Translations under genes and position numbers: made by a program | Part shown: positions 8,784 through 62,097 of the stretch, piece after piece | How the letters are laid out: the number at the start of each line of letters is the position of its first letter | How positions within the stretch are numbered: the stretch's first letter is position 1 | Notes under the pieces: generated by a model | What the model was told of the DNA's origin: nothing | What the model saw: only the letters and a program-made list of their open reading frames with translations | Database searches by the model: none | DNA from: Streptomyces sp. NBC_01717 | Lineage (GTDB): Bacteria; Actinomycetota; Actinomycetes; Streptomycetales; Streptomycetaceae | Reading direction: 5' to 3' | Assembly (NCBI RefSeq): GCF_036248255.1 | Contig: NZ_CP109178.1 | Location: 1,302,001-1,366,000 of the forward strand | DNA length: 64,000 nucleotides

Positions 8784-8819
8784 GGCAGAACCTCCTGGGG
8801 GAACACGCGTCCCGATCGT

Positions 8820-8940
8820 GGTGCCTGAGACGACAGTGCTGGGTCTGACTTCCCGTACGGATACGGGTTCACAGTGGCGCGACCGTGCCGGATTCTCACC
8901 GGACTTCCATCACACCGTCGTCATGTTCGTCGCGACCATA
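8820..8940 (-). promoter_or_regulatory. Cobalamin (B12) riboswitch
   Basis: Read on the minus strand, the leader contains GGAAGTCCGGTGAGAATCC, then a CGGCACGGTC segment, then GCGCCACTGTGAACCC at 8865-8880, the B12 box core of cobalamin aptamers. A downstream GGAAGTCAGACCC element matches the conserved 3' part of the family. It sits 40-150 bases before cbtB, so repression of cobalt import by adenosylcobalamin is the natural reading. The ends are approximate. Confidence 0.92.
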
Positions 8941-19182: not shown

Positions 19183-19668
19183 ATGACGATCCCTCACCGT
19201 TCAGTCGGCACATTCAGCATGATCAGCACCGACGGCTCGGCCGACTTCCCCGGCCGTTCCGGTCCGACAGCCACCGCCGAGGCCGACCCGCACGATGTGG
19301 GCCAGGTCCGCACCTCGTACGCCCCCGACCGTGACGGCGATCCCGATCCCGGCGAGATCGTCTGGACCTGGGTGCCGTTCGAGGAGAGCGACGGCCGGGG
19401 CAAGGACCGCCCGGTGCTCGTGGTGGCGCGCGAGGCGGCGGGCACGCTGCTCGCCGTGCAACTCTCCAGCAAGCAGCACGACCGGGAGCGTGAGTGGGTG
19501 GCCCTCGGCGCCGGGCCGTGGGACAGCTCGGGCCGGCCGTCCTGGGTCGATCTCGACCGGGTGCTGCGGGTGCACGAGGACGGGATGCGCCGCGAGGCGT
19601 GCGCGCTGGACCGGGACCGGTTCGATCTGGTCGTCGGGCGGCTGCGGGAGCGCTACGGCTGGAGCTGA
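19183..19668 (+). CDS. PemK/MazF-like protein without linked antitoxin
   Basis: A 161-residue protein. Residues 1-55 are a polar extension, and the C-terminal 105 residues match PemK/MazF-type proteins: GEIVWTWVPFEESDGRGKDR, then RPVLVV, and the PSWVDLDRVLRV strand. MazF toxins are endoribonucleases of about 110 residues, so the extension is unusual. No antitoxin-like frame lies in the 206 bases upstream. ATG 19183 has GGTGTCGGG before it; ATG 19219 is an alternative start. It converges on a macrodomain gene across a repeat array. Toxicity is unproven. Confidence 0.72.
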   Translation: MTIPHRSVGTFSMISTDGSADFPGRSGPTATAEADPHDVGQVRTSYAPDRDGDPDPGEIVWTWVPFEESDGRGKDRPVLVVAREAAGTLLAVQLSSKQHDREREWVALGAGPWDSSGRPSWVDLDRVLRVHEDGMRREACALDRDRFDLVVGRLRERYGWS

Positions 19669-19711
19669 CCGACGGGGCCGGGCCCACCGGCTGTGGCGGC
19701 TGCGGTCGACC

Positions 19712-19939
19712 TCTCCGGCTCGGCACCGTCACGGCCGGCGCCCATCCCTCCAGCTCGACCTGACCGTTACGGTCGGCGCCTGCCCCGACGTCCCGACGTA
19801 TCCGTCACGGTAGATGCCCACAACACCGTCCGACGTCGGCCGTCACGGCCGGTGAACACTCCTTCGGCTCAACGTGACCGTTACGGTCGGCCGCCACTCC
19901 TCCGGCTCAACGTCACGCTCACGTCTGCGCTTCACGGCC
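19712..19939. repeat. Six-unit 38-bp array with central CCGTYACGG palindrome
   Basis: The palindrome CCGTYACGG occurs at 19726, 19764, 19802, 19840 and 19878, exactly 38 bases apart each time, and a degraded sixth copy lies at 19916. Flanks are also conserved: a CTCGACGTGA-like arm before and TCGGCGCC-like arm after, best seen in units 2 and 5. The period is not a multiple of three and no frame is coding, so this is DNA or RNA structure. The array fills the gap between convergent genes and its last unit enters the end of the macrodomain gene. Confidence 0.9.
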
Positions 19940-20755
19940 GAACGTCCGGGCGAACGCGTTACGGGTCTCCGCTGTGCGGCTGCGGTCGAGGATGCCGAAG
20001 ACGATCTGCTCGAAGTGGCCGTCGAACCGGCCCCCGTCGGCGAGCAGCGCCCGGAACGCGCCTGCCACCTGCGCCGGATCGTTCATGAACACGCCGCAGC
20101 CCCAGGCCCCGAGCACGAGCCTGCGGTACCCGCGCACGGCGGCGACCTCGAGCACCCGCTCGGCGCGGGACGCGAGCACCGCGGGGATGCGGTGGGCGTC
20201 CTCGGGCGTCCGGCTGCGGATGACTCCGGCGTTGGGCGCCGGCGAGGTGAGGAAGCCGACGGTGTACGGGGTGTCCAACAGCTGCCCCCGGTCGTCACGG
20301 AACACCGGCACGCCGGGCGAGTGGATCACTCGATCGGTGTAGAAGGCGCTGCGTTCGGCCCGGTGGTGGGCGTAGTAGTCGGGGGCCCGCAGCAGGGTGG
20401 CGTACAGCGCGGAACCGCGGCACAGGGCCTCCTCCTGGGCCTGCGCGCCGTTGAGGTAGCCACCCCCGGGGTTACGGGCGGAGGCGTAGTTCAGGACGGC
20501 GATCCTGCCGGGCCCTTCGCCGGTCATCCGGCGCGCCGCCTGCAGGCTGCTCTCGCCGGTCACCTCGATGACCGCGGTGCGGTCGGTGTCGAGCGCGGCG
20601 ACGGGCACCGGGTCGGGACCGTACAGCCGGGTCCCGGAGAGCGCGGCAGCCAGAGTGCGCTCAATACTGATCTCACGCCCCTCGGGCGTGCGGTAGAGCC
20701 CGGCTTCGACGATGGACTCGGTCTCTGTCGCGATGGCGCGCAGCCGTGCGCTCAT
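19919..20755 (-). CDS. PARG-type macrodomain protein (TIGR02452 family)
   Basis: A 278-residue protein with a macrodomain fold. The catalytic loop of bacterial poly(ADP-ribose) glycohydrolases, GGG-x(6-8)-QEE, is present as NPGGGYLNGAQAQEEALCR, and a later GAWGCGVF motif binds the ADP-ribose diphosphate. Such enzymes remove ADP-ribose from proteins or degrade poly(ADP-ribose). ATG 20755 follows GGGGAG. It is divergent from egtA and convergent with the MazF-like gene. No partner ADP-ribosyltransferase is visible nearby. Confidence 0.85.
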   Translation of the reverse strand: MSARLRAIATETESIVEAGLYRTPEGREISIERTLAAALSGTRLYGPDPVPVAALDTDRTAVIEVTGESSLQAARRMTGEGPGRIAVLNYASARNPGGGYLNGAQAQEEALCRGSALYATLLRAPDYYAHHRAERSAFYTDRVIHSPGVPVFRDDRGQLLDTPYTVGFLTSPAPNAGVIRSRTPEDAHRIPAVLASRAERVLEVAAVRGYRRLVLGAWGCGVFMNDPAQVAGAFRALLADGGRFDGHFEQIVFGILDRSRTAETRNAFARTFGREAQT

Positions 20756-20904: not shown

Positions 20905-22239
20905 ATGTCACCGGACGCACCCGTCGGCCACGGTCCGACCGATTACGACCGCCCTCTCGGTGAGGGCGAGGCGGAGGATTTACTGCGATGCATCTGCTTC
21001 AAGACCGGCCCGCCCCGGACGGTCGGTGTCGAGCTCGAATGGCTCATTCACGACCGTGACCGGCCCCGTACGCCGGTCGCCCACGACCGTATCGACGCGG
21101 CCGTCGCCGCCGTGGGCGCGCTGCCACTGAGTGCTGCGCTCACGTTCGAACCCGGCGGACAGCTGGAGCTCAGCTCGCAGCCGGCGGACTCCCTGATGGC
21201 CTGTATCGAGGCCATGGCCACCGACCTGGCCGCCGTACGTGCCGCGCTCGGCCGGCTGGACCTCGTACCGGTCGGTCTCGGCGTCGATCCGTGGCATCCC
21301 CCGCGTCGTCTGCTGCACGAGCCCCGCTACGACGCCCTGGAGGCCTCGCTGGACCGGTCGGGACCGGCGGGTCGCGCCATGATGTGCTCCACCGCGTCCG
21401 TCCAGGTCTGTCTGGACGCCGGCGAGGAGGAGCCGGGGCCGCTCGGCTACGGGCGGCGCTGGCAGCTGGTGCATCTGCTGGGTGCGGTGCTGGTGGCGGC
21501 GTTCGCCAACTCGCCGTACCGGGAGGGCCGGCCGACGGGATGGCGGTCCACCCGCCAGTCGCTGTGGGCCGACCTCGATCCGGTACGGAGCCTGGCACCG
21601 CCGGGCCGTTCCGCCCCGCGCGACGACTGGGCCACGCATGTGCTCGACGCCCCGGTGATGTGCATCCGGAGCGACGAGGCGCCGTGGGCCGTGCCGGTCG
21701 GTCTGACCTTCCGGGACTGGATCCGTACGGGTGCGCCGCGGCCGCCGACGCGCGCCGATCTCGACTACCACATGACCACGCTGTTCCCGCCGGCTCGCCC
21801 GCGCGGACATCTCGAACTGCGCATGATCGACGCACAGTTCGGTGACGACGGATGGCTCGTGCCGCTCGCCGTCACCACCGCCCTGTTCGACGACCCGGAG
21901 GCTGCCGAGACCGTGTACCGCACCGTCAAACCTCTGGCCGAGATAGCAGGCGCGCGGTCCGCTCCGCGCAATCCGCTCTGGGTCGGCGCCGCCCGTGACG
22001 GCCTGGCCGACCCGGAACTGCGGGTGACAGCCGCAACCTGCTTCGAAGTGGCGCTGGAGGCTCTGCCCCGACTGGGTGCGTCCGAGGCGGTCCAGCAGGC
22101 GGTGGCGGTCTTCCACGACCGTTTCGTCGCCCGGGGCCGATGTCCGGCCGACGATCTGCCCGAACTTCTCGCGATGCCCTCGGTGCATGCGGCGCGCCCG
22201 GCGCTCCGTCCGGATGAGGGAAGGAAAGCCCGCTCATGA
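20905..22239 (+). CDS. egtA: EgtA, glutamate-cysteine ligase of ergothioneine synthesis
   Basis: A 444-residue GCS2-type ligase that makes gamma-glutamylcysteine, the thiol donor for ergothioneine. The ATP-grasp-like core begins TVGVELEWLIHD and includes TFEPGGQLELSSQP, both family hallmarks. ATG 20905 follows AAGGAGG by 7 bases. Codon 26 is TTA (20980-20982), so translation should need bldA tRNA and may be limited to late growth. The gene overlaps egtB by 4 bases (ATGA) and heads the egtABCD operon. Confidence 0.93.
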   Translation: MSPDAPVGHGPTDYDRPLGEGEAEDLLRCICFKTGPPRTVGVELEWLIHDRDRPRTPVAHDRIDAAVAAVGALPLSAALTFEPGGQLELSSQPADSLMACIEAMATDLAAVRAALGRLDLVPVGLGVDPWHPPRRLLHEPRYDALEASLDRSGPAGRAMMCSTASVQVCLDAGEEEPGPLGYGRRWQLVHLLGAVLVAAFANSPYREGRPTGWRSTRQSLWADLDPVRSLAPPGRSAPRDDWATHVLDAPVMCIRSDEAPWAVPVGLTFRDWIRTGAPRPPTRADLDYHMTTLFPPARPRGHLELRMIDAQFGDDGWLVPLAVTTALFDDPEAAETVYRTVKPLAEIAGARSAPRNPLWVGAARDGLADPELRVTAATCFEVALEALPRLGASEAVQQAVAVFHDRFVARGRCPADDLPELLAMPSVHAARPALRPDEGRKARS

Positions 22240-23588
22240 CTGAATCCCGCGCAACCCCGACGCCCGATCTCGATGCGGAGGCGCTCCGGCAGCGCGCTCT
22301 CGCGGCGCTCCTCACCGCCCGGGAACGCACCACGCTCCTCACCGACAGCGTCGACGACCGTGAACTGACGGCCCAGCACTCGCCGTTGATGTCGCCCCTG
22401 GTCTGGGACCTCGCGCACATCGGCAATCAGGAGGAGTTGTGGCTGCTGCGTGGCGTCGCCGGGCGTGAGGCGATGCGCCCCGAGATCGACGGGCTGTACG
22501 ACGCCTTCGAGCATCCGCGGGCCAGCCGTCCCTCTCTTCCGCTGCTGCCGCCCGCCGAGGCCCGCTCGTATGCCGCGGAGGTGCGCGGAAGGGCCCTGGA
22601 CGTCCTGGAGAGCACCGCACTGATCGGTGACCGCCCGCTCGTGGAGGCCGGCTTCGCCTTCGGGATGATCGCCCAGCACGAGCAGCAGCACGACGAAACG
22701 ATGCTGATCACCCATCAACTGCGATCCGGTCCGGCCGTGCTCACCGCACCGGAGCCGCCGCGGCCCACCGACGCGGCCTCCCTGCCCGCCGAAGTCATGG
22801 TTCCCGGTGGCCCGTTCACCATGGGTACGTCGACCGAGCCGTGGGCGCTCGACAACGAGCGTCCCGCCCATGTGCGTGAGGTGCCGGGATTCTTCATCGA
22901 CACGGCGCCGGTCACCTGCGGCACGTACGAGCGCTTCATCGAGGACGGTGGCTACACCGATCAGCGCTGGTGGGCCCCCGAGGGCTGGGCGATGGTCCGT
23001 GAGCACCGGCTGACCGCCCCGCAGTTCTGGCACCGGGACGGAGGCCAGTGGCTGCGCCGCCGTTTCGGGGTGACCGAGCCCGTGCCCGCCGACGAGCCGG
23101 TGCTCCATGTCAGCTGGTACGAGGCGGACGCGTATGCCCGCTGGTCGGGGCGCAGGCTTCCCACCGAGGCCGAGTGGGAGAAGGCGGCGCGTCACGACCC
23201 GGATTCGGGGCGTTCGCGGCGCTATCCGTGGGGCGACGAGGACCCGTCCCCCGAGCGGGCCAACCTGGGCCAGCGCCATCTGCGGCCCGCACCGGCCGGC
23301 GCCTATGCGGCGGGCCGGTCACCGCTCGGAGTGCGGCAGTTGATCGGCGACGTGTGGGAGTGGACGTCGAGCGACTTCCTCCCCTATCCGGGCTTCTCGG
23401 CATTCCCCTACCGCGAGTACTCGGAGGTCTTCTTCGGGCCCGCCCACAAGGTGCTGCGCGGCGGCTCGTTCGCCGTGGACACGGTGGCCTGCCGGGGCAC
23501 GTTCCGGAACTGGGACCTTCCGGTGCGGCGCCAGATCTTCTCCGGATTCCGCACCGCGAGGGATCTCCATACCGCGAAGGATCTCTGA
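22236..23588 (+). CDS. egtB: EgtB, hercynine-cysteine sulfoxide synthase
   Basis: A 450-residue non-haem iron enzyme that joins gamma-glutamylcysteine to hercynine. Residues 1-160 are the DinB_2-type domain with the iron ligands, visible as WDLAHIGNQEE and the HEQQHDET motif. About 180-450 form the formylglycine-enzyme-like domain, with VPGGPFTMGT, then SWYEADAYARW and the final LRGGSFA and SGFRTA blocks. Length is standard. It starts inside the egtA stop and ends inside the egtC start, so translation is coupled. Confidence 0.95.
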   Translation: MTESRATPTPDLDAEALRQRALAALLTARERTTLLTDSVDDRELTAQHSPLMSPLVWDLAHIGNQEELWLLRGVAGREAMRPEIDGLYDAFEHPRASRPSLPLLPPAEARSYAAEVRGRALDVLESTALIGDRPLVEAGFAFGMIAQHEQQHDETMLITHQLRSGPAVLTAPEPPRPTDAASLPAEVMVPGGPFTMGTSTEPWALDNERPAHVREVPGFFIDTAPVTCGTYERFIEDGGYTDQRWWAPEGWAMVREHRLTAPQFWHRDGGQWLRRRFGVTEPVPADEPVLHVSWYEADAYARWSGRRLPTEAEWEKAARHDPDSGRSRRYPWGDEDPSPERANLGQRHLRPAPAGAYAAGRSPLGVRQLIGDVWEWTSSDFLPYPGFSAFPYREYSEVFFGPAHKVLRGGSFAVDTVACRGTFRNWDLPVRRQIFSGFRTARDLHTAKDL

Positions 23589-24343
23589 TGTGCCGCCATA
23601 TCGCCTATCTGGGGCCGCCCGTGGCGCTCGGTGAGCTGCTGACCCGGCCGCCCCACGCGTTGGTCCGCCAGTCCTGGGAGCCACGCCGGCAGAAGTACGG
23701 AACGGTCAACGCGGACGGCTTCGGCGTGGGCTGGTACGCGGACGGCGACCCGGTCCCGGGACGCTACCGGCGCCAGGGACCCATCTGGGCCGACCAGTCG
23801 TTCGACGATCTGGCCAGAGTCGTACGCAGCACTGCGCTGCTCGCCGCCGTCCGGGACGCCACCGAGAGGGACGCGGACGGTGAGGCCGCGGCTGCGCCGT
23901 TCGCCGCGGGGCGGCTGCTGTTCAGCCACAACGGCGCGGTGAAGGGCTGGCCCGGATCGCTGGCGCCGCTCGCCGCCACGCTGCCCCCGGCCGAGCTCCT
24001 CGCCCTTGCCGCCCGCTGCGACTCGGCCCTGATCTGGGCGCTGGTGCGGCACCGGGTCGCGGATGGCGACGACGTGCCCCAGGCGGTCGCCGACACGGTG
24101 CGCGAGGTCGCGGAGGCGGCGCCCGGCTCACGGCTCAATCTGCTGCTCACCGACGGTACGACGATCGTGGCGACGGCCTGGGGCGACACCCTGTGGTATC
24201 TGGCCGAGCCGGGCCACCGAACGGTGGTGGCCTCGGAACCCTACGACGACGATCCGCACTGGCGCGAGGTCCCCGACCGCACTCTGCTGGTGGCGACCCG
24301 CGCCGACGTTCTGCTCACCCCGCTCAAGGAGCCCACCGAGTGA
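23588..24343 (+). CDS. egtC: EgtC, class II glutamine amidotransferase-like hydrolase
   Basis: A 251-residue Ntn-fold enzyme that removes the gamma-glutamyl group from the EgtB product. The N-terminus is MCRHIAYLG, so Met removal exposes the Cys2 nucleophile. NADGFGVGWY and LLFSHNGAV are the usual class II amidotransferase motifs. Its ATG shares one base with the egtB stop (TGATG) and its own stop overlaps the egtD start. Confidence 0.95.
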   Translation: MCRHIAYLGPPVALGELLTRPPHALVRQSWEPRRQKYGTVNADGFGVGWYADGDPVPGRYRRQGPIWADQSFDDLARVVRSTALLAAVRDATERDADGEAAAAPFAAGRLLFSHNGAVKGWPGSLAPLAATLPPAELLALAARCDSALIWALVRHRVADGDDVPQAVADTVREVAEAAPGSRLNLLLTDGTTIVATAWGDTLWYLAEPGHRTVVASEPYDDDPHWREVPDRTLLVATRADVLLTPLKEPTE

Positions 24344-25302
24344 GTCCCTTTCTGCTGACCCGCACCCTGCCGGTGGACGCGACGGACGCGGCGCTGCGCG
24401 CCGATGTGCTGCACGGTCTGACCAGGCACCCGAAGACGCTGCCGCCCAAGTGGTTCTACGACGCGCACGGCAGCGAGCTGTTCGAGGAGATCACCCGGCT
24501 CCCCGAGTACTACCCGACCCGCGCCGAGCGGGAGATCCTGGTCGCCCGCGCGCCGGAGATCGCCGCGGCGTCCGGGGCGAAGACCCTGATCGAGCTGGGT
24601 TCCGGCTCGTCGGAGAAGACCCGGCATCTGCTCGACGCACTGCCCGGACTCCACAGCTACGTGCCGGTGGATGTGAGCGAGAGCGCGCTGCGAGGCGCGG
24701 CCGAGGCGCTGCTCGTGGAACGGCCGGACCTCTCGGTCCACGCCCTGATCGCCGACTTCACGGGCGAGCTCGTGCTGCCCGACACGCCGGGACCGCGACT
24801 CGTCGCGTTTCTGGGCGGCACGATCGGCAACCTGCTGCCGGACGAGCGGGCGGTGTTCCTGAAGTCCGTGAGGTCGCTGCTCTCGCCTGGCGACGCGCTG
24901 CTGCTCGGCACGGATCTGGTGAAGGACGAGGAGGTGCTGGTCGCGGCGTACGACGATGCGGCCGGAGTGACGGCGGCGTTCAACAAGAACGTACTGACCG
25001 TCGTCGACCGGGAGCTGGGCGCGGACTTCGACCCGGCCGACTTCGACCATGTGGCGCTGTGGGACCGGCGGCAGGAGTGGATCGAGATGCGCCTGCGGGC
25101 CCGCAGAGCGCTGACGGTGAAGATCCCCGGACTGGATCTGGTGGTTCCGTTCGAGGCCGGCGAGGGCCTTCGCACGGAGGTGTCGGCGAAGTTCCGCAAG
25201 GAGGGGATCCGTGGCGAGCTCGCCACGGCGGGGCTGAGGCTGACTCAGTGGTGGACGGATTCCGCGGACCGCTTCGCACTGTCGCTGGCCACGGCGGTCT
25301 GA
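24340..25302 (+). CDS. egtD: EgtD, histidine N-alpha-trimethyltransferase
   Basis: A 320-residue SAM methyltransferase that converts histidine to hercynine, the first ergothioneine step. The SAM loop reads ELGSGSSEKTRHLL, and FLGGTIGNLLPDE and the FNKNVLTVVDREL block are characteristic of EgtD. GTG 24340 overlaps the egtC stop. The 3' end overlaps the convergent olsA gene by 58 bases. No EgtE lyase gene is in the window; in many Streptomyces that step is unlinked. Confidence 0.95.
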   Translation: MSPFLLTRTLPVDATDAALRADVLHGLTRHPKTLPPKWFYDAHGSELFEEITRLPEYYPTRAEREILVARAPEIAAASGAKTLIELGSGSSEKTRHLLDALPGLHSYVPVDVSESALRGAAEALLVERPDLSVHALIADFTGELVLPDTPGPRLVAFLGGTIGNLLPDERAVFLKSVRSLLSPGDALLLGTDLVKDEEVLVAAYDDAAGVTAAFNKNVLTVVDRELGADFDPADFDHVALWDRRQEWIEMRLRARRALTVKIPGLDLVVPFEAGEGLRTEVSAKFRKEGIRGELATAGLRLTQWWTDSADRFALSLATAV

Positions 25303-61098: not shown

Positions 61099-62097
61099 TC
61101 AGCGTCCGTCCTCGTCGTGCGGGTCCTCGGTGAGCAGGCCCTCGGCGCGCAGGTCGTCCCAGACGGCGTCCGGGATCTCGCGGGAGAGCAGGTCGGCGGC
61201 GTCGTGCATCTCGTCCGGCGAGCGGGTGCCGACGAGCACCGAGGCGACAGCCGGGTGAGCGAGCGGGTAGCGCAGCGCGGCGGCGCGCAGCGGTACGCCG
61301 TGCGCCTCGGTGACGGCCTTGATGCGCAGGGCCCGGTCGAGCAGGGTCATCGGGGCGGCGGCGTAGTCGTAGGTCGAGCCTGGCCGCGGGTCGGCGAGCA
61401 GCCCGGAGTTGAAGACCCCGCCGATGACGACGGCGCGGCCGCGGGCGGCTGCTTCGGGCAGCAGCTCGGCCAGCGCGGACTGGTCGAGGAGGGTGTAGCG
61501 ACCGGCGCAGAGCACGGTGTCGACGTCGGTGTCGCGCAGGAAGCGGGTGAGCATCGCGGTCTGGTTCATGCCCGCGCCGATGGCGCCGACAACACCTTCG
61601 GCGCGCAGCTTCTCCAGGGCCGGGTAGGCCGTGCGGAAGGCTTCCTCCGCATGGTCGTCCGGGTCGTGCAGATAGGCGACGTCGATCCGGTCGAGGCCGA
61701 GCCGGTCGAGACTGTCCTCGATGCTGCGGCGTACGCCGTCGGCGCTGAAGTCCCATCGCCGTCGGTGGGTGGCCGTTACGGCGAAGCCTTCGGAGAGACC
61801 GTCGTCCGGGGCCGGCTCGCCGGCCGGCAGGGGGTCGAGCACCCGCCCGACCTTGGTGGACACCACGTACGCGTCGCGGGGCCGGTGGCGCAGGGCCTCG
61901 CCGAGCCTGCGTTCGGAGAGGCCGAGCCCGTAGTGCGGTGCCGTGTCGAAGTAGCGGACGCCCTCGTCCCAGGCGGCGTCCACGGCGGCGGCGGCCTGCG
62001 CGGCATCGACCTCGTGGAAGAGATTGCCGATGCCGGCCGCCCCGAAGGACAGCTCGGTGACCTCGACCGCACTGCTTCCCAGCCTGTTTCGCCGCAT
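61099..62097 (-). CDS. Aldo/keto reductase (L-fucose dehydrogenase type)
   Basis: A 332-residue AKR. The catalytic Tyr lies in YFDTAPHYGLG, with Asp and Lys in the flanking strands (TKVGRVL), and a C-terminal NADP-binding region has VLVGTRSPDEM. ATG 62097 follows GGGGAGGG. First in the sugar oxidation operon, it probably oxidises L-fucose or a related sugar to a lactone. The promoter lies just upstream. Confidence 0.87.
   Translation of the reverse strand: MRRNRLGSSAVEVTELSFGAAGIGNLFHEVDAAQAAAAVDAAWDEGVRYFDTAPHYGLGLSERRLGEALRHRPRDAYVVSTKVGRVLDPLPAGEPAPDDGLSEGFAVTATHRRRWDFSADGVRRSIEDSLDRLGLDRIDVAYLHDPDDHAEEAFRTAYPALEKLRAEGVVGAIGAGMNQTAMLTRFLRDTDVDTVLCAGRYTLLDQSALAELLPEAAARGRAVVIGGVFNSGLLADPRPGSTYDYAAAPMTLLDRALRIKAVTEAHGVPLRAAALRYPLAHPAVASVLVGTRSPDEMHDAADLLSREIPDAVWDDLRAEGLLTEDPHDEDGR

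Follow-up and report, generated by a model that had tools for sequence, protein, structure and literature searches.

What is a row of short palindromes at one fixed spacing doing between two convergent genes of a Streptomyces genome, and from what did it arise? In the stretch of 64,000 nucleotides analysed here (the window), the left neighbour of this row is a MazF/PemK-like gene of 161 aa (19183..19668, + strand; Pfam PF02452, E 8.9e-13), for whose product no NCBIfam (E <= 0.001) or PADLOC (E <= 0.01) family was found. The right neighbour is a microbial-type PARG of 278 aa (19919..20755, − strand; PF10021, E 5.8e-52; TIGR02452, E 3.4e-97). The initial annotation placed the array between genes of the MazF-like and PARG kinds, and Pfam agrees for both families; the array is not wholly intergenic, since the PARG stop codon (19919-19921) falls within its sixth, degraded unit. 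The array is real but a fairly ordinary repeat. With moderate confidence we regard it as a lineage-specific tandem amplification of a terminator-type hairpin at the PARG 3′ end, perhaps still acting as a terminator cluster; the origin is better supported than the part in termination, which we infer.

The motif CCGTYACGG starts at 19726, 19764, 19802, 19840 and 19878, each step being 38 bp, and the cores of these five copies span 19726-19886; one further CCGTYACGG exists in the window, at 61773. In the 38-bp register the units on the + strand are unit 1 (19714..19751, core 19726-19734), beginning 46 bp past the end of the MazF-like gene, unit 2 (19752..19789, core 19764-19772), unit 3 (19790..19827, core 19802-19810), unit 4 (19828..19865, core 19840-19848), which has the longest local stem in the array, and unit 5 (19866..19903, core 19878-19886). 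The degraded unit 6 (19904..19941) holds CGCTCACGT at the in-register core position 19916-19924, with 6/9 matches to the core, and overlaps the PARG stop; the array thus takes the position just downstream of a stop codon that is typical of terminators. The units stand head to tail, as in VNTR loci and minisatellites. Between 19712 and 19939 the autocorrelation at 38 reaches z = 8.5 with 58 % identity, the top period of the window, and none of 1000 dinucleotide shuffles attains it (maximum 3.9). Masking the core columns leaves 38 at the head of 70 periods (47 %), followed by 76, so that whole units are repeated and not just five motifs. A wider comparison covered 1.664 Mb of the same genome in 81 stretches, the window plus 80 others of 20 kb each, with genes called by a simple codon-score script. 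Here the periodicity of the array spacer was 7.25 and the next 5.30, the highest for a period that is not a multiple of three among 774 spacers of 60-600 bp. The array was not reported by TRF at a score of at least 40, and no Rfam family matched it at gathering scores. These results bear out the claims of five copies exactly 38 bp apart, of a degraded sixth in register and of a non-coding periodic array; a coding repeat was rejected because 38 is not a multiple of three. The word "phased" does not hold in the helical sense, as 38 bp are about 3.6 turns at a helical repeat of 10.5 bp per turn.

The flanks, which had been called conserved, are so only moderately: two units agree at 10-19 of 29 positions, and the mean identity among the five is 48.6 %, against 30.6 % expected at random. 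The most similar pair is units 2 and 5 (74 %). Invariant columns make up 8/9 of the core versus 4/29 outside it, a concentration in the core that column permutation rates at p 0.002 (0.006 on majority counts), the core having been chosen post hoc. This constancy, and a spacing unchanged across five diverged copies while the spacer of relatives ranges from −6 to 249 bp, speak against the leading rival, a neutral minisatellite: the spacer would simply tolerate tandem duplication, and the array would be drifting debris without present function. We take this to be possible, yet clearly not the first choice. That T and A never vary within the core is as compatible with a DNA site as with a loop. 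An odd palindrome that is invariant including its central T and A, at exact spacing, would also suit binding sites (CCGTYACGG) for a roadblock, nucleoid or partition-type protein. This protein-site reading, one half of the earlier proposal of "binding sites or an RNA repeat", is kept as a rival that we consider distinctly unlikely; for the other half, a role of the hairpins in RNA seems plausible. Outer stem pairs are present in units 2, 4 and 5 (A-T in 2 and 5, G-C in 4) and mismatched in 1 and 3, so that within the five array units inspected the stem is extended in these three only. Against protein sites stand the missing helical phasing and the convergence of the two genes, by whose orientation no promoter of theirs is expected here.

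Within its own genome the array is alone. Pairs of the form CCGTYACGG-N25-33-CCGTYACGG were found only at this place (4 forward, 0 reverse, 0 in the reversed control), and the only additional match from a DNA search was weak (83 % over about 40 bp, E 3.6e-4); by eye it lies in sequence that resembles coding DNA. In the sampled part of the genome 23 sites of CCGTNACGG lie in 0.315 Mb of non-coding DNA, five of them in the array, compared with 62 in 1.35 Mb called coding. This amounts to no clear excess of the motif in non-coding DNA, which again argues against the protein-site reading. Dispersed mobile repeats of the REP/MITE type occur in many copies over a genome, and CRISPR repeats are near-identical, 21 bp or longer and separated by unique spacers. 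The array resembles both in its short palindromes and regular spacing. However, it is single in the genome apart from the weak 40-bp match, relatives have one copy at the same place, and the conserved block is 9 bp long with semi-conserved "spacers" and the rest 49 % alike; we give an origin as mobile repeat or CRISPR array next to no credence.

The genus gives a similar picture. A model of the unit built on sequence alone was run against 392 Streptomyces genomes; the five units of the source genome were its sole matches with E below 1e-5. At E <= 0.01 it matched in 202/392 genomes; these matches are read as background. In the central 600 bp of the best loci from 19 other genomes of this sample no second such array was seen, the best period being a multiple of three in all 19; because of the stricter Infernal filters and the sampling of the genus, a diverged array could have been missed. 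BLAST matches in 42 of 199 genomes besides the source (E 1e-6 to 1e-3) were likewise judged background. The pair pattern with N25-33 occurred in 72/199 genomes and its reversed control, which contains fewer CG dinucleotides, in 14/199; numerous spacings are divisible by three, which makes coding sequence likely for those. The consensus search called for by the initial annotation thus gave no second array in the 392-genome sample, and a conserved element of its own form is not supported: the array is single among these genomes and relatives carry one copy. For protein-binding sites the presence in one genome only is a further point against, and the lack of a second array in the genus sample is in keeping with neutral debris.

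Some other loci with the motif are recorded here in their own right. In locus L179 (1184-1305) and locus L180 (1406-1503), from two other Streptomyces, tandem arrays with CCGTYACGG cores lie at an ORF end in another neighbourhood, with TRF periods of 37 and 74 and of 20 and 38, respectively. Their gene context comes from mechanical ORF lists only, and an ORF on the opposite strand leaves the orientation at L180 uncertain; they are possible parallel cases of the window array. Pairs of CCGTYACGG at a repeated spacing of 39 or 36 (one of 37) in three further genomes (G107, G137 and G148; loci L181-L183) are probably coding repeats. In the open-licence PMC literature searched, no description of such an array was found: the kind is known, both as intergenic tandem repeat and as small gene-end hairpins, while this instance and its derivation were not found described there.

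The orthologous spacer in relatives was reached through PARG. A search of genome contigs gave the best 80 loci among the matches listed, to which one record from a plasmid collection was added, 81 in total. A MazF match reaching residue 155 or beyond was present in 54 of them, and the 27 lacking one were dropped. The MazF-PARG spacers of these 54 relatives measure −6 to 166 bp, further loci extend the range to 249 bp, and the spacer in the window measures 257 bp. Three or more copies of CCGTNACGG occurred in 0/54 orthologous spacers (among the PARG matches listed). This count bears on a reading as type III toxin-antitoxin system, in which the repeats would encode an RNA antitoxin of the MazF-like protein as ToxI does for ToxN. 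Tandem non-coding repeats beside a MazF/PemK-family gene are superficially alike, and both adjoin a gene for an endoribonuclease-type toxin (PMC8860590). However, the array is located downstream of the toxin-like gene, on the wrong side, whereas in ToxIN the repeats are placed between promoter and toxin (PMC8860590). Type III loci have the repeats upstream of the toxin, with a terminator separating the two. The array is also not conserved with that gene, and the toxin belongs to another family. PF02452 was the only match in Pfam (E <= 0.001), and no family of the ToxN, CptN or TenpN type was found in Pfam, NCBIfam or PADLOC at the limits used. We consider a type III system very improbable, and the suggested link to the RNA-toxin-like gene is not supported.

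The nearest relative among the matches listed, Streptomyces sp. NBC_01669 (locus L072; 86.9 % over 8.6 kb), preserves an intermediate. Its alignments with the window on either side of the array differ in offset by 152 bp, that is 4 x 38, and its spacer has one clear unit, 79 % identical to unit 5; the 16-mer CCCCTCTGGCTCAACG occurs twice there, 38 bp apart. A profile of the five units run against the 81 PARG loci found as best match outside the window this same orthologous spacer, with E 4e-4 for 52-bp units and 0.011 for 38-bp units. Against 50 further loci, some from genomes already sampled, the best match was again an orthologous spacer (L298, E 0.0015), the next having 0.5. The L298 spacer holds a single copy of the element, containing GCGTTACGGTCGG. 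When the 52 bases of this element were compared with the whole window, unit 5 agreed at 36/52 and unit 2 at 33/52, the second-best match on either strand; the next on the + strand reached 28 and the best on the minus strand 31. None of 5000 shuffles reached 36 within 19669-19960. This match to units 5 and 2 links the repeated unit with an element present once at a gene end, and unit 5 is nearest to the single-copy elements of both relatives. By sequence comparison the units are true repeats with single-copy relatives at the same place in other species. The exact core is absent from the unit in L072 (CCGTGTCGG) and L298 (GCGTTACGG), relatives that keep the unit, which counts against protein sites; the one clear unit in L072 accords with neutral debris. 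The conservation of spacing in relatives, on which the initial annotation had partly staked its reading, did not appear: unit number and spacing vary among the relatives seen, the difference in copy number being one between species (L072).

The single element at the PARG 3′ end appears to be a hairpin. Sixteen PARG 3′-end sequences, from 15 relatives and the window, align colinearly, and the stem in relatives has up to 11 pairs, formed by CCCTCACCCT...AGGGTGAGGG in one group and CCCTATGGCT...AGCCTGAGGG in another. The 15 relatives were picked by eye for a recognisable hairpin, which biases the covariation count towards pairing. In this chosen set 81.8 % of cells are paired (2/500 shuffles reach this), 8 cells are changed on both sides (4/500) and the covariation score is 0.145 (4/500). 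Two of the five covariation measures were not above shuffles, namely pairs changed on both sides (71/500) and further pair types (263/500). When the stem partner is slid, every measure drops apart from the number of pair types, which goes up at +1 (7 instead of 5). The comparison suggests that, in the chosen relatives, stem pairing was kept through some changes on both sides. The RNAalifold consensus of the relatives' hairpin is weak (−2.6 kcal/mol), and only 12 spacers contain a hairpin with z below −2, out of the 39 from relatives that are 40 bp or longer; the hairpin and TRF counts left out the shorter spacers of the other 15 among the 54 relatives. A profile of the relatives' hairpin ranks 19899-19915 first in the 64 kb, in the syntenic spacer, but as a weak match (E 1.6, or 2.4 without L072). 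By position, unit 6 is the counterpart of the relatives' single hairpin.

In this genome strong hairpins are commonest between convergent genes. Among 70 sampled convergent spacers of 60-200 bp the mean hairpin z is −3.1 and 53 % lie below −2, compared with −1.7 and 29 % for 70 tandem spacers, −0.4 and 9 % for 70 divergent ones, and 0.1 and 0/60 for coding stretches. The hairpins of convergent spacers in the own genome fit the stem-loop ends lacking U that have been reported in S. clavuligerus (PMC8269248). Several hairpins in a cluster are proposed to be more effective terminators than one alone (PMC8355165). The array most likely derives from a bidirectional terminator. In the array spacer itself a strong hairpin is absent: the best 40-nt fold has z +0.75 and the best 44-nt fold −0.3. 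Folding the array in full gives z −0.76 on the + strand and −1.40 on the − strand, no clear gain over shuffles, and the 25-mers of single units 1-5 give −4.7 to −12.1 kcal/mol. Since it has no stable stem, the array is not placed in the terminator family, but it may work like one. With the I-shaped or U-lacking and clustered-hairpin terminators (PMC8269248; PMC8355165) it shares hairpins at a gene 3′ end, the lack of a U-tract and several hairpins in a row. It differs from them in that its hairpins repeat one unit every 38 bp exactly and are individually weak, none rising above background; its own setting is between convergent genes.

Amplification of the hairpin, the reading we prefer, would have run as follows. 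A single stem-loop at the PARG 3′ end, in the short stretch that separates the convergent genes for PARG and the MazF-like protein, would have acted as a bidirectional, U-lacking (I-shaped) transcription terminator or as a 3′-end stabiliser. In one lineage a 38-bp unit would have been amplified in tandem, the copy number changing by whole units through slippage or recombination. The product would be a group of five small stem-loops, each built on a CCG-TYA-CGG core and longer in units 2, 4 and 5, that can be read both ways; the original long stem would have decayed and the array taken over its job. Even now the array may end transcription in both directions, as a group of weak terminators. A variant of this course, which we hold to be rather doubtful, adds selection on the 9-bp palindrome after amplification: the regular array would be a DNA roadblock or multi-step terminator that insulates the convergent genes and replaces a single strong terminator. 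Because no strong hairpin is left in the array, neutral drift and an array of protein sites are still rivals, and the absence of a hairpin excess agrees with the former. The locus offers a traceable case in which a terminator-type hairpin between convergent genes became a tandem array in a GC-rich genome, together with single-copy relatives and an intermediate in the nearest relative. Should the array terminate transcription, it would let one test in a natural setting whether a number of weak hairpins can stand in for a single strong one.

In other species, too, this spacer has time and again been found to hold tandem repeats, of other kinds. At a TRF score of at least 40 such repeats were found in 11 of the 39 spacers from relatives that are 40 bp or longer, the controls for this set being 1/195 coding stretches (PARG genes of the same loci) and 11/780 shuffled spacers. 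A second set, without separate controls, gave 6/14. It consisted of 14 of 40 paired loci, 10 of 50 loci lacking one of the two genes, and excluded L155 and L300, where the PARG end looked misplaced, as well as spacers already seen or under 40 bp. In total 17 of 53 other spacers at the locus have tandem repeats, with periods of 7-35 bp, which is a point in favour of neutral duplication. These repeats make the window array one outcome of a general tendency of the spacer. By eye their units mostly differ from one another, L077 and L148 being an exception with similar units, and do not resemble the 38-mer; the window array is more diverged than they are, with its core preserved. Intergenic minisatellites and VNTR loci, of which the mycobacterial MIRU are an example, share with the array the head-to-tail intergenic units and a copy number that differs between relatives. 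VNTR units are usually less diverged than the copies seen here, and the array differs from VNTR and MIRU in being a single locus that stems from a gene-end hairpin.

Three observations concern the spacer and its wider surroundings. A more distant relative (L304 in genome G329) has a different array in its 249-bp orthologous spacer, with a TRF period of 22 and 3.9 copies of GGCCGGTGGCACGACGACCGGC. Elsewhere in the window an AdoCbl (cobalamin) riboswitch lies at 8787-8935 on the − strand (54.4 bits), the sole Rfam match of the window at gathering score. Beyond PARG, a GCS2-family gene is followed by three ORFs on the same strand (20905-25302, +), the family search covering the first gene only; in gene order and sequences this region resembles an ergothioneine (egtABCD) cluster.
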